58,638 bases of DNA, from the NCBI GenBank assembly GCA_017631255.1, contig JAGBTP010000025.1:1-58638 (forward strand), given 5' to 3'. The notes below the pieces were generated by a model that saw nothing but the letters and a program-made list of their open reading frames with translations, made no database searches and was not told the DNA's origin. The position numbers were made by a program, and so were the translations under genes. The stretch's first letter is position 1; every line of letters starts with the position of its first letter. Below are positions 17,802-35,478 of this stretch, piece by piece. The DNA is from Alistipes sp. GTDB taxonomy: Bacteria > Bacteroidota > Bacteroidia > Bacteroidales > Rikenellaceae.

Positions 17802-17810
17802 GGGGGGGGG
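17802..17810 (+). repeat. G9 homopolymer upstream of the BACON lipoprotein promoter
   Basis: Nine consecutive G, flanked T and TA, between two divergent genes. It ends 7 bases before the -33 element of the 17.9-kb gene. Poly-G of this length is prone to slipped-strand length change. An identical TG9TA occurs at 32661-32672; no other G or C run above six was seen in the window. Confidence 0.85.
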
Positions 17811-17904: not shown

Positions 17905-19413
17905 ATGAGACGATTTTTAGTTTTTGCTCTCTCATTCGTAGCCATTCTATTTGTGGCGTGCAAGGGCGAGAGTAGCACCTCGAAAAACGGGGTGGTAATC
18001 ACCTCGTCAACCAATGTAGAGGTCGACATCTACGGTGGCGAGTTTGTGATTGAGTACAAGGCCGATGGTGTTGCCGACATCACCTTCAGCTCGGAGTGGC
18101 TTCGCACCAAGAGCAATGAAGACGGCAAGGCCATCATTCAGTACGAGGCCAATGAGACTGGTGGTGTGCGTCAGGCAGCTGTAACACTCAGCTACGCGAC
18201 ATATAAGGCAACCGTCGTGGTAACGCAGTCAAACGAGGCCACAACCCCTATCCTCACCCTCGTTGGCGAGGAGACTATCAACATCGACCGCTGCGGCCAG
18301 AAGGTTGAGATTATGTACACCCTCAAGAATAGCAACAATGAGGACTACATCTTCGCCAAGACCTCTGCCGACTGGATCTACTCTATCGAGTGCGGCAATG
18401 ATAACAAAGTTAAGTTGGGTATTGCGACCAACACATCGGGCAAGACTCGCGAGACCATCGTTACCGTAGGCTACGGCACCGTCTCATTCGATGTTCTGCT
18501 TTCGCAGGCGGGCGATGGCGCCATCAACTTCAACGCACCAATCCTCTGGGGCGACTACTATGGCGATGCTCTCACCCCAGGTGCAGCAAATTATTGGATA
18601 TTCCTCTCGGATCGTGGTTTCGACCTTGAGGACAAGTCATACCCTAACGCCACATACTACCGTATCGACGCGTATGGCCCATTGGCTACCACTACGGGCG
18701 TTATTCCAATCCCCGACGGCACCTACACCTACGATCCTAACAACACCTACGCTCAGTGGACATTCACCGCAGAGTGGAGCGGCTATTGGGTGACAGATAG
18801 CAACGCAAATCGTGAAACTATCGCCAAGTTTGAGGAGGCAACACTCACCGTCGAGGGCAACAAAATCACCCTCGTAGCGACTATCAATGGTGAGCAGCAC
18901 ACAGCTGTGTACGAGGGCGACAACTTACTACTCGATCGTCGCAACGATGTGACCGTACTCACCACCCTCGATGGCGACTATGCGGCAGAGCTCTCGGATC
19001 ACTATATGATTTATGAGTGCTACGGCGACTACTATGACTATGGCGCATTTAACTGGATGTTCGTCATTATGCCTAATGACAATTCGGGCGACTGCTTCCA
19101 GTTCGACATCATCACCGGCCACAACGACGAGGAGAGTGGCTTTGTAGGTGACTACACCGCTTCGGATGTCCTCGCTCAGTGGTCATTCATCCCTGGCTGG
19201 ACCGACCAGACAAATATGCAGTGTAGCTGGTTCTTCACATCAAACCAGAGCGAGGTGGCACCATTGCGTGGTGGCGAGATGTCGATTGTGGACAATGGCG
19301 ACGGCAGCATCACCGTCAACATCGATGTTACGGACGACCGCCGCAACAACATCACCGGCACCTGGACAGGCGTACCTGAGCCAGCAGCAAGAAGTATGGT
19401 ATATAACAAATAA
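17905..19413 (+). CDS. BACON-domain surface lipoprotein, duplicated C-terminal module
   Basis: 502 residues. Lipobox FVAC gives lipidated Cys at about 20, followed by KGESS, which resembles a Bacteroidetes lipoprotein surface-export signal. Two BACON domains follow (about 32-110 and 118-207), each ending in the characteristic VVVTQ or VLLSQAG strand; BACON domains often bind glycan or mucin. Residues ~215-345 (YWIFLSDRG...YYRIDAYGPLATT) and ~350-495 form two related beta-rich modules ending in NITGTWTGV. The same C-terminal layout occurs in the gene at 46965. Cotranscribed with the next gene. No SusC/SusD pair nearby. Confidence 0.85.
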   Translation: MRRFLVFALSFVAILFVACKGESSTSKNGVVITSSTNVEVDIYGGEFVIEYKADGVADITFSSEWLRTKSNEDGKAIIQYEANETGGVRQAAVTLSYATYKATVVVTQSNEATTPILTLVGEETINIDRCGQKVEIMYTLKNSNNEDYIFAKTSADWIYSIECGNDNKVKLGIATNTSGKTRETIVTVGYGTVSFDVLLSQAGDGAINFNAPILWGDYYGDALTPGAANYWIFLSDRGFDLEDKSYPNATYYRIDAYGPLATTTGVIPIPDGTYTYDPNNTYAQWTFTAEWSGYWVTDSNANRETIAKFEEATLTVEGNKITLVATINGEQHTAVYEGDNLLLDRRNDVTVLTTLDGDYAAELSDHYMIYECYGDYYDYGAFNWMFVIMPNDNSGDCFQFDIITGHNDEESGFVGDYTASDVLAQWSFIPGWTDQTNMQCSWFFTSNQSEVAPLRGGEMSIVDNGDGSITVNIDVTDDRRNNITGTWTGVPEPAARSMVYNK

Positions 19414-30891: not shown

Positions 30892-30928
30892 CGCAATATT
30901 GGATAATATATTTAATGTACCAGGGCAT

Positions 30929-31801
30929 ATGAAGACAAAAATGACAAGATTAGTGATATTTTTAGCATCAATCACTCTTTTATCAGCCTGCGCAAGCAAG
31001 AGCGTCAGCGACGATAAAAAGACTATATTCGTAAGCATTACACCACTCAAGGCGGTTGTCGAGGAGCTTACCTATGGCGATTTTACCGTTGAAGTGCTCG
31101 TACCACAGGGCAGCAGTCCTGAGAGCTACGACCCTACTGCGCGCCAGCTCACCGAGGCAAGCGACGCACAACTACTCTTCACTACGGGACTCATAGCCTT
31201 CGAGCAGAACCTCGTGGATAGAATTGCACATAAGGAGCGACTCATAAACCTCTCTGAGGGCATCGAGTTACTCGCTGGCTGCTGCACACACAACCACAAG
31301 CATAGCCACCACAAGCACGGCATCGACCCACACATCTGGACATCGCCACGCGCGCTGGGCACTATGATTGGCACTATGCACCGCAGCATCAAGAACCTCT
31401 ATCCAGACTCTACAAAGTACGACAAGGCTGCAACACGACTCCTCGAGCAGGTAGCAGAGCTTGATGCACACTGCAAGGCGTCATTGGAGGCGGCACAGGT
31501 TGACGGCTTTATGATTTACCACCCAGCCTACACCTACTACGCCAACGACTACGGCATCCGACAGATTGCCATCGAGCAGGAGGGCAAGGAGCCATCACCA
31601 CGACAGCTCACAACACTCGTTCAGGAGGCTTGTGCCGAGGGCATCAAGTCGATCCTCATCCAGCCACAGTACAACATCAAGAAGGTTATGCCTATCGCAA
31701 AGGAGTGCGGCGCCGAGGTTGTCGTTACCGACCCGTTGGCAGCCAACATCTTTGGTGAGATTGCGCGTGTAACTGAGATAATCTGCCGCAGCAATGAGTA
31801 G
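30929..31801 (+). CDS. znuA: Zinc/manganese ABC transporter substrate-binding lipoprotein
   Basis: Captures Zn2+ (or Mn2+) and hands it to an ABC permease. About 290 residues from MKTKMTRLVIFLAS; a TTG start ten codons upstream would sit on the transcription start. Lipobox LLSAC. A cluster A-I fold is supported by VEVLVPQGSSPESYDPTARQL, a His-rich loop (HNHKHSHHKHG) typical of zinc binders, DPHIWTSPRALG, IYHPAYTYYANDYGI and VVTDPLAANIFGE. The first usual ligand His (SPH-Y) is Glu here (SPESY). It overlaps the ATPase gene by eight bases. No permease gene is adjacent. Confidence 0.9.
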   Translation: MKTKMTRLVIFLASITLLSACASKSVSDDKKTIFVSITPLKAVVEELTYGDFTVEVLVPQGSSPESYDPTARQLTEASDAQLLFTTGLIAFEQNLVDRIAHKERLINLSEGIELLAGCCTHNHKHSHHKHGIDPHIWTSPRALGTMIGTMHRSIKNLYPDSTKYDKAATRLLEQVAELDAHCKASLEAAQVDGFMIYHPAYTYYANDYGIRQIAIEQEGKEPSPRQLTTLVQEACAEGIKSILIQPQYNIKKVMPIAKECGAEVVVTDPLAANIFGEIARVTEIICRSNE

Positions 31802-32573
31802 TCGCAATGCCATAATCTCGCTGCGCGATGTCGGCGTCCGCTACGATAGTGTGGTGGCCATCGAACACGCCAACCTCGACATCTATGCTGACGACTTTAT
31901 CGGCATTATAGGTCCTAATGGTGGCGGCAAAAGCTCTCTGGTCAAGGCGATTACGGGTGTTATCAAGCATAGCGGCACGATAACATATAGCGACGACATT
32001 ATGCGTGGCGGCAAGCCACACATCGGCTACCTACCCCAGATATCGACCTTCGACAAGGCCTTCCCCATCTCCGTATTGGAGGTTGTGATGTCGGGATTGC
32101 AGGCCGAACGAGGACTCTTTGGTAGATACAACGCCGAAGCACGCAAGAGAGCTATGGCGCTCCTTGAGCGAGCAAACCTTGCGAACCTTGCAACGCGCGC
32201 CATTGGCGAGCTTTCGGGTGGCCAGCTGCAACGCGTTATGCTCTGCCGAGCCATCATCTCAAACCCTAAGGTATTAGTGTTGGATGAGCCAACGAACTTC
32301 GTCGACAACCGCTTCGAGAACGAGCTCTACAACCTACTCCACCATCTCGCCGACGAGATGGCAATCATTATGGTGTCGCACGACATTGGCACCGTATCGA
32401 GCGTGGTCAAGAGCATCGTCTGCGTCAACCACCATATCCATCGTCACGACTCGAACATCATCACCGAGGAGCAGCTGCGAGGATATAACTGTCCGATACA
32501 GATTATCTCGCACGGTAACATCCCCCACACCGTCCTCAGCGAGCACGAGGAGTGCCCCCACTGCAAGCATTAG
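31794..32573 (+). CDS. znuC: Zinc-type ABC transporter ATP-binding protein
   Basis: 259 residues. Walker A GPNGGGKSS (about 40-48), Q-loop GYLPQIS, signature LSGGQLQRV, Walker B VLVLDEPTNFVD, H-loop VSHD. Matches the ZnuC/MntB branch. The tail ends in CPHCKH, with His-rich NHHIHRHDS before it, which may bind metal. It overlaps znuA by eight bases, so translation is coupled. The expected membrane subunit ZnuB is not encoded after it: the next gene, 131 bases on, has its own promoter and is a protease. Confidence 0.92.
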   Translation: MSSRNAIISLRDVGVRYDSVVAIEHANLDIYADDFIGIIGPNGGGKSSLVKAITGVIKHSGTITYSDDIMRGGKPHIGYLPQISTFDKAFPISVLEVVMSGLQAERGLFGRYNAEARKRAMALLERANLANLATRAIGELSGGQLQRVMLCRAIISNPKVLVLDEPTNFVDNRFENELYNLLHHLADEMAIIMVSHDIGTVSSVVKSIVCVNHHIHRHDSNIITEEQLRGYNCPIQIISHGNIPHTVLSEHEECPHCKH

Positions 32574-32647
32574 CGCGCCATATATATTATATATTAGGTA
32601 CCGCCACAACTATTCACATACCCCCACCTCACTTTATAGACGAAAAA

Positions 32648-32678
32648 TTTGGAAATTTCGTGGGGGGGGGTATTTTTG
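32648..32678 (+). promoter_or_regulatory. Promoter with a G9 spacer (candidate phase-variable switch)
   Basis: TTTG (32648-32651), 19 nt, TATTTTTG (32671-32678): perfect consensus and optimal spacing. Bases 32662-32670, the -7-proximal half of the spacer, are nine G. Gain or loss of a G would move the two boxes apart or together. The S41 gene starts 26 bases downstream. Confidence 0.75.
32662..32670 (+). repeat. G9 homopolymer inside a promoter spacer
   Basis: Nine consecutive G between -33 and -7 boxes, flanked T and TA exactly as in the tract at 17802-17810. Both tracts lie on the coding strand ahead of a gene for an exported protein. Confidence 0.85.
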
Positions 32679-32704
32679 TAATTGAAAACTAAAACTACAC
32701 TTAT

Positions 32705-34189
32705 ATGAAACGCACACTTTTAACCTTAGCCTTGACACTTATGTGCTGCGTTATATGCGTTGGACAAAACCCTCTTACATTTCCTCGCGAATCGGTGGAG
32801 AGCACAAAGATGTACCACAAGGGCAACATCTACCAGAAGGACTTACTCTTCTACATCGACATCCTCAAGACCACACACCCATACTACGCCGATGCGGAGC
32901 ATCGTGCTCAGCTCGACGAGCAAGCAAAGAGACTATACAAAGAGTGCGGCAAAATAACCAACACTTTGGACTTTCGAGTGAGCATAGCCAAGCTCGCCGC
33001 ATCGCTTCACGACGGCCATACGCAGGTGGGCTATTGGGACACATTCAGCAATGTATTCCCCGTACAACTCTCTCTTGATAGCGATGATATGGGTGTGGTA
33101 ACTGTATCACCAGAGGATCGTCGCGACATCCTTGGCAAGGAGGTGTTGAGCATCAACGGCAAGAGGCTTAGCGATATCCTCACAATGGCGCGCCCACTTA
33201 TAAGTGCCGACAACGAGGCGAGCTTCAAGAATACCTTAACAAAGTTTTGGGGATATGCGGAGTTCTGGTCACTACTCGGTATGAGCGATAAGACGATTAG
33301 TCTCAGTTTCACGGATGGCACCAACGCCGACATCAACGCCGTAGATATATACAACATCAAGATTGCCAAGGCAACAAAGAGCGCAGATAGCCGCCCCACA
33401 GCGCAGCGAGGTGTACTATTCGACTACACCATCTACGAGGCGGAGAGCATCTGTTACTTGCAGTTCAACAAGTTTGCCGACCGTCTCACCAACCCCAACT
33501 TCCCTCAGTTCGCACGCTTCGATGACTTTATACGCGAGATGATGGCCGACATTGAAGCAAAGAATATTGAGACCCTCGTTATCGACTTGCAGTATAATGG
33601 TGGAGGCAATAGCTCATTGGGCACCGTACTCCTCTCGTGGTTGAAACCACATTGGGAGACGAAAAATATTGGTGTCGATGTACGAATCTCGGAGTTGCTC
33701 TACGCATACTACCCATACTACAAGAATTTCACCGTTGGCGGCGAACCTCTCAAGATGGGCGAGCTCTACGACTTCTTCAACTTCGACCACAGCAGTAGCT
33801 ACACCCAGATTGACTACACCGCTCCACAGGACCCCTCGAAGCATATTCTCAACTTCGACGCTGAGCAGATATTCGACGGCAATGTGGTATTCATCCAGAG
33901 CAACAACTCATTTAGCAGCGCAACACTACTCCTCACCCTTGCACGCGATAACGGCATCGGTATCATCATCGGAGAGCCCTCTGGCGGCAAGCCTTGTCAC
34001 TACGGCGATGTACTGAACGATGTGCTGCCAAACACCAACACCATCGTAACGGTAAGCCACAAGTATTTCCGCCGCCCTAATATGGAGCTTAAAGATATGG
34101 AGCATATCGTACCAGATGTCCATATCGAACTCAACAACCCCGACAAGGACTTGGCGTGGGAGTGGGTATTGGAAAACTACGGTAAGTAG
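32705..34189 (+). CDS. Exported S41-family (tail-specific) protease-like protein
   Basis: 494 residues. Signal peptide MKRTLLTLALTLMCCVICVG, with adjacent cysteines at 14-15. Residues ~40-110 are a helical N-domain ending in LHDGHTQVG, a common S41 opening; a PDZ-like region follows (MGVVTVSPEDRRDILGKEVLSINGKRL). The protease core is ~235-480: YLQFNKFAD, VIDLQYNGGGNSSLG, then the presumed nucleophile Ser in NNSFSSATLL (about 403-407) and Lys in GEPSGGKP (about 427). Likely periplasmic or surface. Expression may be switched by the G9 tract in its promoter. Confidence 0.88.
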   Translation: MKRTLLTLALTLMCCVICVGQNPLTFPRESVESTKMYHKGNIYQKDLLFYIDILKTTHPYYADAEHRAQLDEQAKRLYKECGKITNTLDFRVSIAKLAASLHDGHTQVGYWDTFSNVFPVQLSLDSDDMGVVTVSPEDRRDILGKEVLSINGKRLSDILTMARPLISADNEASFKNTLTKFWGYAEFWSLLGMSDKTISLSFTDGTNADINAVDIYNIKIAKATKSADSRPTAQRGVLFDYTIYEAESICYLQFNKFADRLTNPNFPQFARFDDFIREMMADIEAKNIETLVIDLQYNGGGNSSLGTVLLSWLKPHWETKNIGVDVRISELLYAYYPYYKNFTVGGEPLKMGELYDFFNFDHSSSYTQIDYTAPQDPSKHILNFDAEQIFDGNVVFIQSNNSFSSATLLLTLARDNGIGIIIGEPSGGKPCHYGDVLNDVLPNTNTIVTVSHKYFRRPNMELKDMEHIVPDVHIELNNPDKDLAWEWVLENYGK

Positions 34190-34632: not shown

Positions 34633-35478
34633 TTACTTAATCTTGATGTTGTCGATGAGGCGAATGTTGCCAGCCTGTACAGCGCAGCAGCCCTGAATAC
34701 GCTTCGAGTCGCTCCAATTCTCGACCTTCTGCATAGTGAGAGCATCGACAGCCTCGAAGTAGATGGTCTTGAGCAATGGGTTTGAGTCGATGGTCTCCAC
34801 CACCCACTGAGTAAGCTCCGCAGGAGTCATAGTGGTCATCTTAGCAGCACACTGGCTGATAGTAGCGTAGATGTGTGGTGCTGCCTTGCGGTGCTCAGGA
34901 GTGAGAAGCTCGTTGCGTGACGACAGCGCAAGTCCATCCTCACCACGCACAATAGCGCACTCGACAATCTCGATATCAATGTTGAGTTACGCCACCATAG
35001 CCTTGATAACTGCAATCTGCTGAAAGTCCTTCTCGCCGAAGTATGCACGAGCAGGTTTAACCATATCGAACAAACGGCTTACTACCTGTGCCACGCCATT
35101 GAAGTGACCAGGACGAGTAGCACCCTCCATAACCTTATCTACGAGACCGAAGTCGAAGACGCGTGTATCTGGCTCTGGGTAGATATCCTCGACCGTAGGC
35201 ATAAAGACGATATCGGCACCCGCAGCCTCCAAGATAGCGCAGTCGGCCTCTGGTGTGCGAGGATAGTTCTTAAGGTCGTTCTTATCATTGAACTGTGTTG
35301 GATTTACAAAGACGCTGACAACGACAGTATCGTTCTCACGGCGTGCGCGCTCAACGAGTGAGCGGTGGCCATTGTGAAGAGCTCCCATCGTAGGGACAAA
35401 ACCTACGCCCTCCTTAGGGCAGTTGGCTAATGCTGCTTGTAGCGCAGCCACATTATTTACTACTTTCATATCCTTCAT
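34633..35478 (-). pseudogene. panC: Pantothenate synthetase, interrupted by one in-frame TAA
   Basis: PanC joins pantoate and beta-alanine. Reading through one stop gives 281 residues, the family length. The N-domain has [12 protein letters not shown] (HxGH, 35-38), [21 protein letters not shown] and [15 protein letters not shown]. At codon 164 (34989-34987) TAA interrupts ...[16 protein letters not shown], and the frame resumes directly with LNIDIEIVECAIVRGEDGLALSSRN. Homologues normally have Gln or a similar residue there, so one C-to-T change (CAA to TAA) explains it. The C-domain (KMSKS-like LALSSRN) is otherwise undamaged. The cause could be recent inactivation, a strain-specific mutation or a sequencing error. 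Met4 (35469) is an alternative start. Confidence 0.9.

Follow-up and report, generated by a model that had tools for sequence, protein, structure and literature searches.

A G tract inside the spacer of a Bacteroidota-type promoter in Alistipes, and a recurrent class of candidate slippage promoters in the genus

Contig JAGBTP010000025.1 of Alistipes sp. (assembly GCA_017631255.1; positions 1 to 58,638, the whole stretch of 58,638 nucleotides [nt] being called the window here) carries at 32641-32710 a promoter-like element in which a run of nine G (G9; other tract lengths are written likewise) sits between the two core boxes. The tract ends 34 nt ahead of a 494-aa open reading frame (ORF) with a Pfam Peptidase_S41 match (E 1.2e-14) and a signal-like N terminus, and the exported, protease-like product assigned to it in an earlier note on this stretch is sustained by both features; the same ORF scores far under the cut-offs of curated NCBIfam S41 families. 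On re-reading of the letters, each element lies exactly where that note had placed it, including the TTTG, the 19-nt spacer, G9, and TATTTTTG (Table 1). Passages of PMC7366714 describe the primary-sigma promoter of Bacteroides as a -33 TTTG and a -7 TAnnTTTG separated by an AT-rich spacer; here the same two boxes stand at the spacing usual for the genus. A promoter of the TTGACA/TATAAT sigma-70 type was not found in 32450-32800.

Table 1. The promoter-like element and the genes around it, in window coordinates
Feature	Position	Strand	Basis
ZnuA-like and ABC ATPase genes, possible read-through source	30899..32573	+	ORFs, domain matches
Dyad AAATTTGGAAATTT, contains the -33 TTTG box	32645..32658	+	letters read directly; AAAATTTGGAAAATT kept in relatives
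-33 box, TTTG	32648..32651	+	letters read; consensus in passages of PMC7366714
Spacer, 19 nt	32652-32670	+	letters read
G9 tract, final nine bases of the spacer, abutting the -7 box	32662..32670	+	letters, run counts, shuffles
-7 box, TATTTTTG	32671..32678	+	letters read; TAnnTTTG consensus in passages of PMC7366714
Predicted start region and A-rich leader	32679..32704	+	inferred from distance to the -7 box
S41-peptidase-like exported protein, 494 aa (ATG at 32705)	32705..34189	+	ORF and Pfam

The element had been regarded as a lone oddity, and this view does not survive a search of related genomes. Run on 101 genomes of the same genus, the pattern TTTG-N3..16-G7-N0..5-TAnnTTTG, which demands nothing after the TTTG, returned 62 rows; in two cases a pair of rows covers a single tract, so that there are 60 distinct sites in 36 of the 101. 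The reversed pattern gave 2 matches in the same genomes and a C-tract version 1 site, and chance occurrence was rejected on these counts. The architecture, a Bacteroidota-type promoter with a G tract between its boxes as first proposed, and its recurrence in relatives are both secure. Most of the genomes were assembled from metagenomes, where the length of a homopolymer may be called wrongly, yet chance or assembly artefact would be a very improbable source of a design that many separate assemblies, and an isolate record as well, have in common, with regularity of strand, motif, and gene class.

The sites share more than the core boxes. Their common motif is AAAATTTGGAAAATTC-N2-G8/9-TAAATTTG, and most sites of the genus search read TTTGGAAA although the pattern left those letters free. 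A second scan demanded TTTGGAAA, so those letters are conserved by construction in its sites; it returned 90 stretches, 80 of which were taken as loci, and 61 of these 80 are labelled Alistipes, Rikenellaceae, or Tidjanibacter. The 61 come mostly from ruminant and deer gut metagenome-assembled genomes (MAGs); the other loci include a few from elsewhere in Bacteroidota and some whose labels seem out of place. Together with 30 loci of the genus search, the 80 loci form a set of 95 sites; removal of 14 (13 from outlier taxa or with odd anchoring, and 1 with a base between tract and -7 box) leaves 81, for which membership in the genus was assumed and not checked site by site. A non-redundant set of 62 sites, with flanks that are under 60% alike, shows strong conservation of the -7 box and of positions -18 to -4 ahead of the tract, and a weaker T-rich block lies upstream around -28; the dyad is kept as AAAATTTGGAAAATT, with 35 of the 62 coming from the scan that demanded TTTGGAAA. 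As a separate observation, one contig of a Bacteroidetes MAG (L112 and L121) has the design three times in similar form; the tracts are G7 or G8, and every spacer is 19 nt long.

Conservation from -18 to -4 among sites with unrelated flanks goes beyond what a core promoter needs, and would suit a fixed regulon motif, in which a dimeric regulator or a sigma contact reads the -33 dyad and a stable G tract sets helical phase or melting. Expression would then be set by the regulator and not by slippage, although the two could be combined. The dominance of G9 (58 of 81 sites) and a coherent class of targets point the same way, and among the rivals this one deserves the most weight, even if we hold it to be unlikely. 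Spacers from 17 to 21 nt occur among the G-tract promoters, a range that a phase-fixed site should not tolerate. A search for AAATTTGGAAA promoters with the spacer left free, in 41 genomes, also speaks against it: 26 of its 54 sites have a run of at least 6 G, one of them interrupted and one of exactly 6 G, and the remaining 28 have the same dyad with ordinary spacers whose G runs do not exceed 3. The gap between the two groups would favour a tract kept up by slippage over a motif read base by base.

In 41 genomes, exact TTTG/TAnnTTTG pairs with spacers of 18, 19, and 20 nt number 635, 3278, and 3265, against 160, 154, and 177 for the reversed controls in the same genomes; ordinary promoters use 19 and 20 nt alike and 18 nt about five times less. 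Because 19 and 20 nt are equally common and 18 is rare, loss of one G should weaken the window's promoter and gain of one should be nearly neutral. The earlier suggestion that a slip of one or two G would weaken or restore the promoter is corrected to that extent; we infer that G9 and G10 would be on and G8 low. By genome statistics, one-base changes would thus cross the line between preferred and disfavoured spacing.

The G-tract sites themselves depart from the general preference. In the 81-site set, 23 have 18-nt spacers against 54 at 19-20 nt (30% versus 9% for ordinary promoters, p 1.6e-7); the figures are 17 against 41 for the non-redundant 62 (p 8e-6) and 11 against 15 for the 30 genus-search loci, which are surely of the genus (p 6e-6). 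The excess looks as if many promoters had slipped one G off the optimum, and relaxed selection would do likewise.

Comparison of close relatives, made with one genome per species, bears on the stability of the tract. When loci at least 88% identical are paired, 7 of the 11 pairs show a difference in the tract and 4 a difference in spacer length, where the flanking gap rate predicts 1.2 tract gaps (p 0.04); at 80% identity, spacer length differs in 10 of 26 pairs against 4.6 expected (p 0.02). Paralogous loci of the isolate Phaeodactylibacter xiamenensis, which has the design at three loci (L110, L146, and L157), provide the clearest example: L110 and L157, at 97.3% identity across 896 nt and without flanking gaps in 120 columns, have G7 and G9. 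Two MAG loci (L134 and L073) are 97.8% alike over 412 nt and have 18- and 20-nt spacers. These close pairs are paralogues or lie in different genomes, so that they record divergence and not observed switching; change in tract length between close loci is weakly shown.

Three side observations concern tracts and loci of this kind. In the Bacteroidia MAG locus L159 the tract is G13, but the non-G part is shortened and the spacer keeps a length of 20 nt. In the window's own assembly, two contig ends (L048, at the end of G000:C43, and L054, at the start of G000:C65) share an overlap of 368 nt; it contains 5 mismatches and one gap, where G8 faces G9, as though sequence from two strains had been assembled; this tract lies outside the promoter class. 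Finally, L073 and L089 are 85.5% alike over 269 nt upstream and have the same promoter but different downstream genes, one for an aspartyl-protease lipoprotein and one for an S41 protein, a pattern such as an exchange of the downstream gene would leave.

The genes behind these promoters form a recognizable class. Of 90 G-tract sites with a callable ORF, 88 precede a product with a signal-like or lipobox-like N terminus, compared with 40 of 66 ordinary promoters of the same loci (Fisher p 1e-9); no ORF was found at 5 of 95 G-tract sites and 12 of 78 controls. The rule applied, crude hydrophobicity plus lipobox, does not separate signal peptides from membrane anchors, and by this rule the exported or surface product typical of porA-like promoters is present throughout most of the class. 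When eight of the proteins were scanned against Pfam, three had matches above the cut-off (an M16 peptidase, an aspartyl protease with PDZ, and a CarboxypepD_reg domain with an outer-membrane barrel), two had weak matches below it (fn3 and BACON), and three had none.

Long G tracts are in excess in this genome as a whole. The window has 108 runs of G or of C with length 4, 13 of length 5, none of 6-8, and two of 9, both of which are G on the + strand; GGGGGGGGGTA is observed twice where shuffles give 0.01. The full assembly (G000; 1.82 Mb in 76 contigs) has 57 G8 windows against 0.4 to 3.1 expected under Markov models of the window with both G9 tracts removed. These amount to 34 tracts (12 G8, 21 G9, and 1 G10), none of them within retained ORFs. 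Just two have the full TTTG/TAnnTTTG design, the window's own and G000:C1:7137-7167, which precedes a protein with CarboxypepD_reg and outer-membrane barrel domains.

This abundance, with 32 of the 34 tracts outside the design and none in a retained ORF, lends something to the idea that G tracts accumulate in intergenic DNA by slippage and base change and fall within some promoters with no selected switching; relaxed selection could also produce the 18-nt excess. Drift of this sort is nevertheless improbable, more so than a fixed motif: the design was found at 60 sites with a G tract and at 1 with a C tract in one set of genomes, the sites have an extended motif in common, their tracts abut the -7 box, and exported products are over-represented behind them.

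The second G9 tract of the window (17802-17810, + strand) lies outside a spacer. It is followed by TA, directly upstream of a promoter-like TTGG-N19-TACCTTTG stretch, and lies 94 nt before a lipoprotein-like gene (17905-19413, + strand) with a weak BACON match. A TA follows 16 of the 34 own-genome G8-G10 tracts, compared with 94 of 817 G3-G4 runs of the window (p 3e-7), and some of the TA-followed tracts may be degenerate promoters.

At the S41-like gene itself, the tract appears to have been gained and lost while the promoter class persists. A homologue at E 1e-60 or better is present in 24 of 180 genomes of the genus, the window's own included, and 24 other homologue loci have a readable start, one exact duplicate and two fragments lacking a start having been excluded. 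The G-tract promoter stands at three of these 24, in three other genomes, with G8, G8, and G9. In the closest homologue (63% identity) the tract is G8 and the spacer 18 nt; a uniform G9 among relatives, which had been named as an outcome that would tell against slippage, is therefore not what is seen. A pattern search of genome_contigs for named S41 relatives matched 15 stretches, none of which was confirmed.

Taken together, these data favour, at a probability of roughly 0.55, a genus-wide set of porA-like slippage-type promoters built on the -33/-7 promoter of Bacteroidota. The element would be a primary-sigma promoter with a G tract prone to slippage at the end of its spacer; slippage during replication would alter the number of G and with it the distance between the boxes, such that 19 nt (G9, the state in the window) or 20 nt (G10) gives the spacing preferred by the genus and an active promoter, and 18 nt (G8) a weak one. 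With the class placed on one extended motif before exported proteins and lipoproteins, mixed surface compositions within a population would be expected. Use of the primary sigma factor, slippage within a strain, an effect on transcription, and any benefit are all things we infer from this design. A further step, somewhat less probable than the set itself, is a distributed surface phasome in this little-studied genus of gut Bacteroidales, in which a portable promoter unit (-33 dyad, G tract, and -7 box) may stand in many copies ahead of genes for exported proteins, each switching independently by one G.

Several results weigh against slippage promoters of this kind. At 20 of the 24 other S41 loci there is no TTTG/TAnnTTTG match within 140 nt, and 1 of the 24 has an ordinary promoter; as said, 32 of 34 tracts in the genome stand apart from the design. 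The spacer statistics count related sites as independent. Three of the seven tract differences between close loci are edge base changes that leave spacer length as it was, which makes the evidence for instability weaker; the pairs are not independent, and the excess over flanking indels is small. G9 also dominates among G tracts outside promoters, and tract length is narrow everywhere.

The S41-like gene may also be transcribed by read-through from the upstream transporter genes, ZnuA-like and ABC ATPase, since a search of 32450-32800 revealed no terminator-like site between them and it. Downstream, a pantoate-beta-alanine ligase gene (34633-35478, - strand) is split in the assembled sequence by an in-frame stop near 34987, and both pieces match PF02569, in order.

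Beyond the genus the design is sparse. Of 392 other genomes of the order, 4 have one site each, and the reversed pattern had none among the matches listed for these genomes; none was found in other genera of the same family, from which only 4 genomes were sampled. A phage origin was considered and rejected, as viral_contigs gave no exact match to the motif in its TTTGGAAA form.

If the proposed mechanism is correct, a promoter switch based on slippage would exist in a phylum whose known promoter switches are inversions, and a porA-type design would have arisen on a promoter of another build and come to stand, as a single motif, ahead of many genes to which it had spread. Surface heterogeneity of ruminant-gut Bacteroidales would become directly measurable, since a slippage class is missed by inversion finders and can be scored from ordinary short reads. 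In the open-licence literature, no report of slippage promoters in Bacteroidota was among the matches listed.

Among known systems, the Bacteroides primary-sigma promoter has the same boxes and differs in its spacer, half of which is G here. Phase variation in Bacteroides is described, in passages of PMC12632263 and PMC11868660, as DNA inversion. The invertible promoters of capsule and surface genes, from the same order, would resemble the present class in the phase control of surface genes (passages of PMC12632263) and differ in working by recombination between flanking inverted repeats, none of which was found in the window at 32500-32900 (the best pair, 22 nt long and 73% alike, has an arm within the promoter). 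A partial GCC/GGC inverted repeat, seen by eye in alignments around the promoter of many relatives, is what an invertible promoter would have in its favour; with that absence of flanking repeats in the window, where an invertase was not searched for, this becomes the least probable of the alternatives. In nadA of Neisseria meningitidis, repeat number shifts the spacing of promoter elements and a repressor is involved, according to passages of PMC2791445; there the tract is tetranucleotide and lies upstream of the core promoter. The likeness to porA of N. meningitidis (and also to opc and fetA), which the earlier note had seen for porA and opc, lies in a homopolymer between both core boxes, one-base steps, and a surface product. 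Surface expression of porA falls stepwise from 11G through 10G to 9G (passages of PMC3639595; mechanism also in parts of PMC2791445 and PMC3899988). The porA promoter has -35/-10 boxes and its switching is proven, whereas the present class has -33/-7 boxes and predicted switching; and, unlike porA, one extended motif is common to about one to three loci in each genome.
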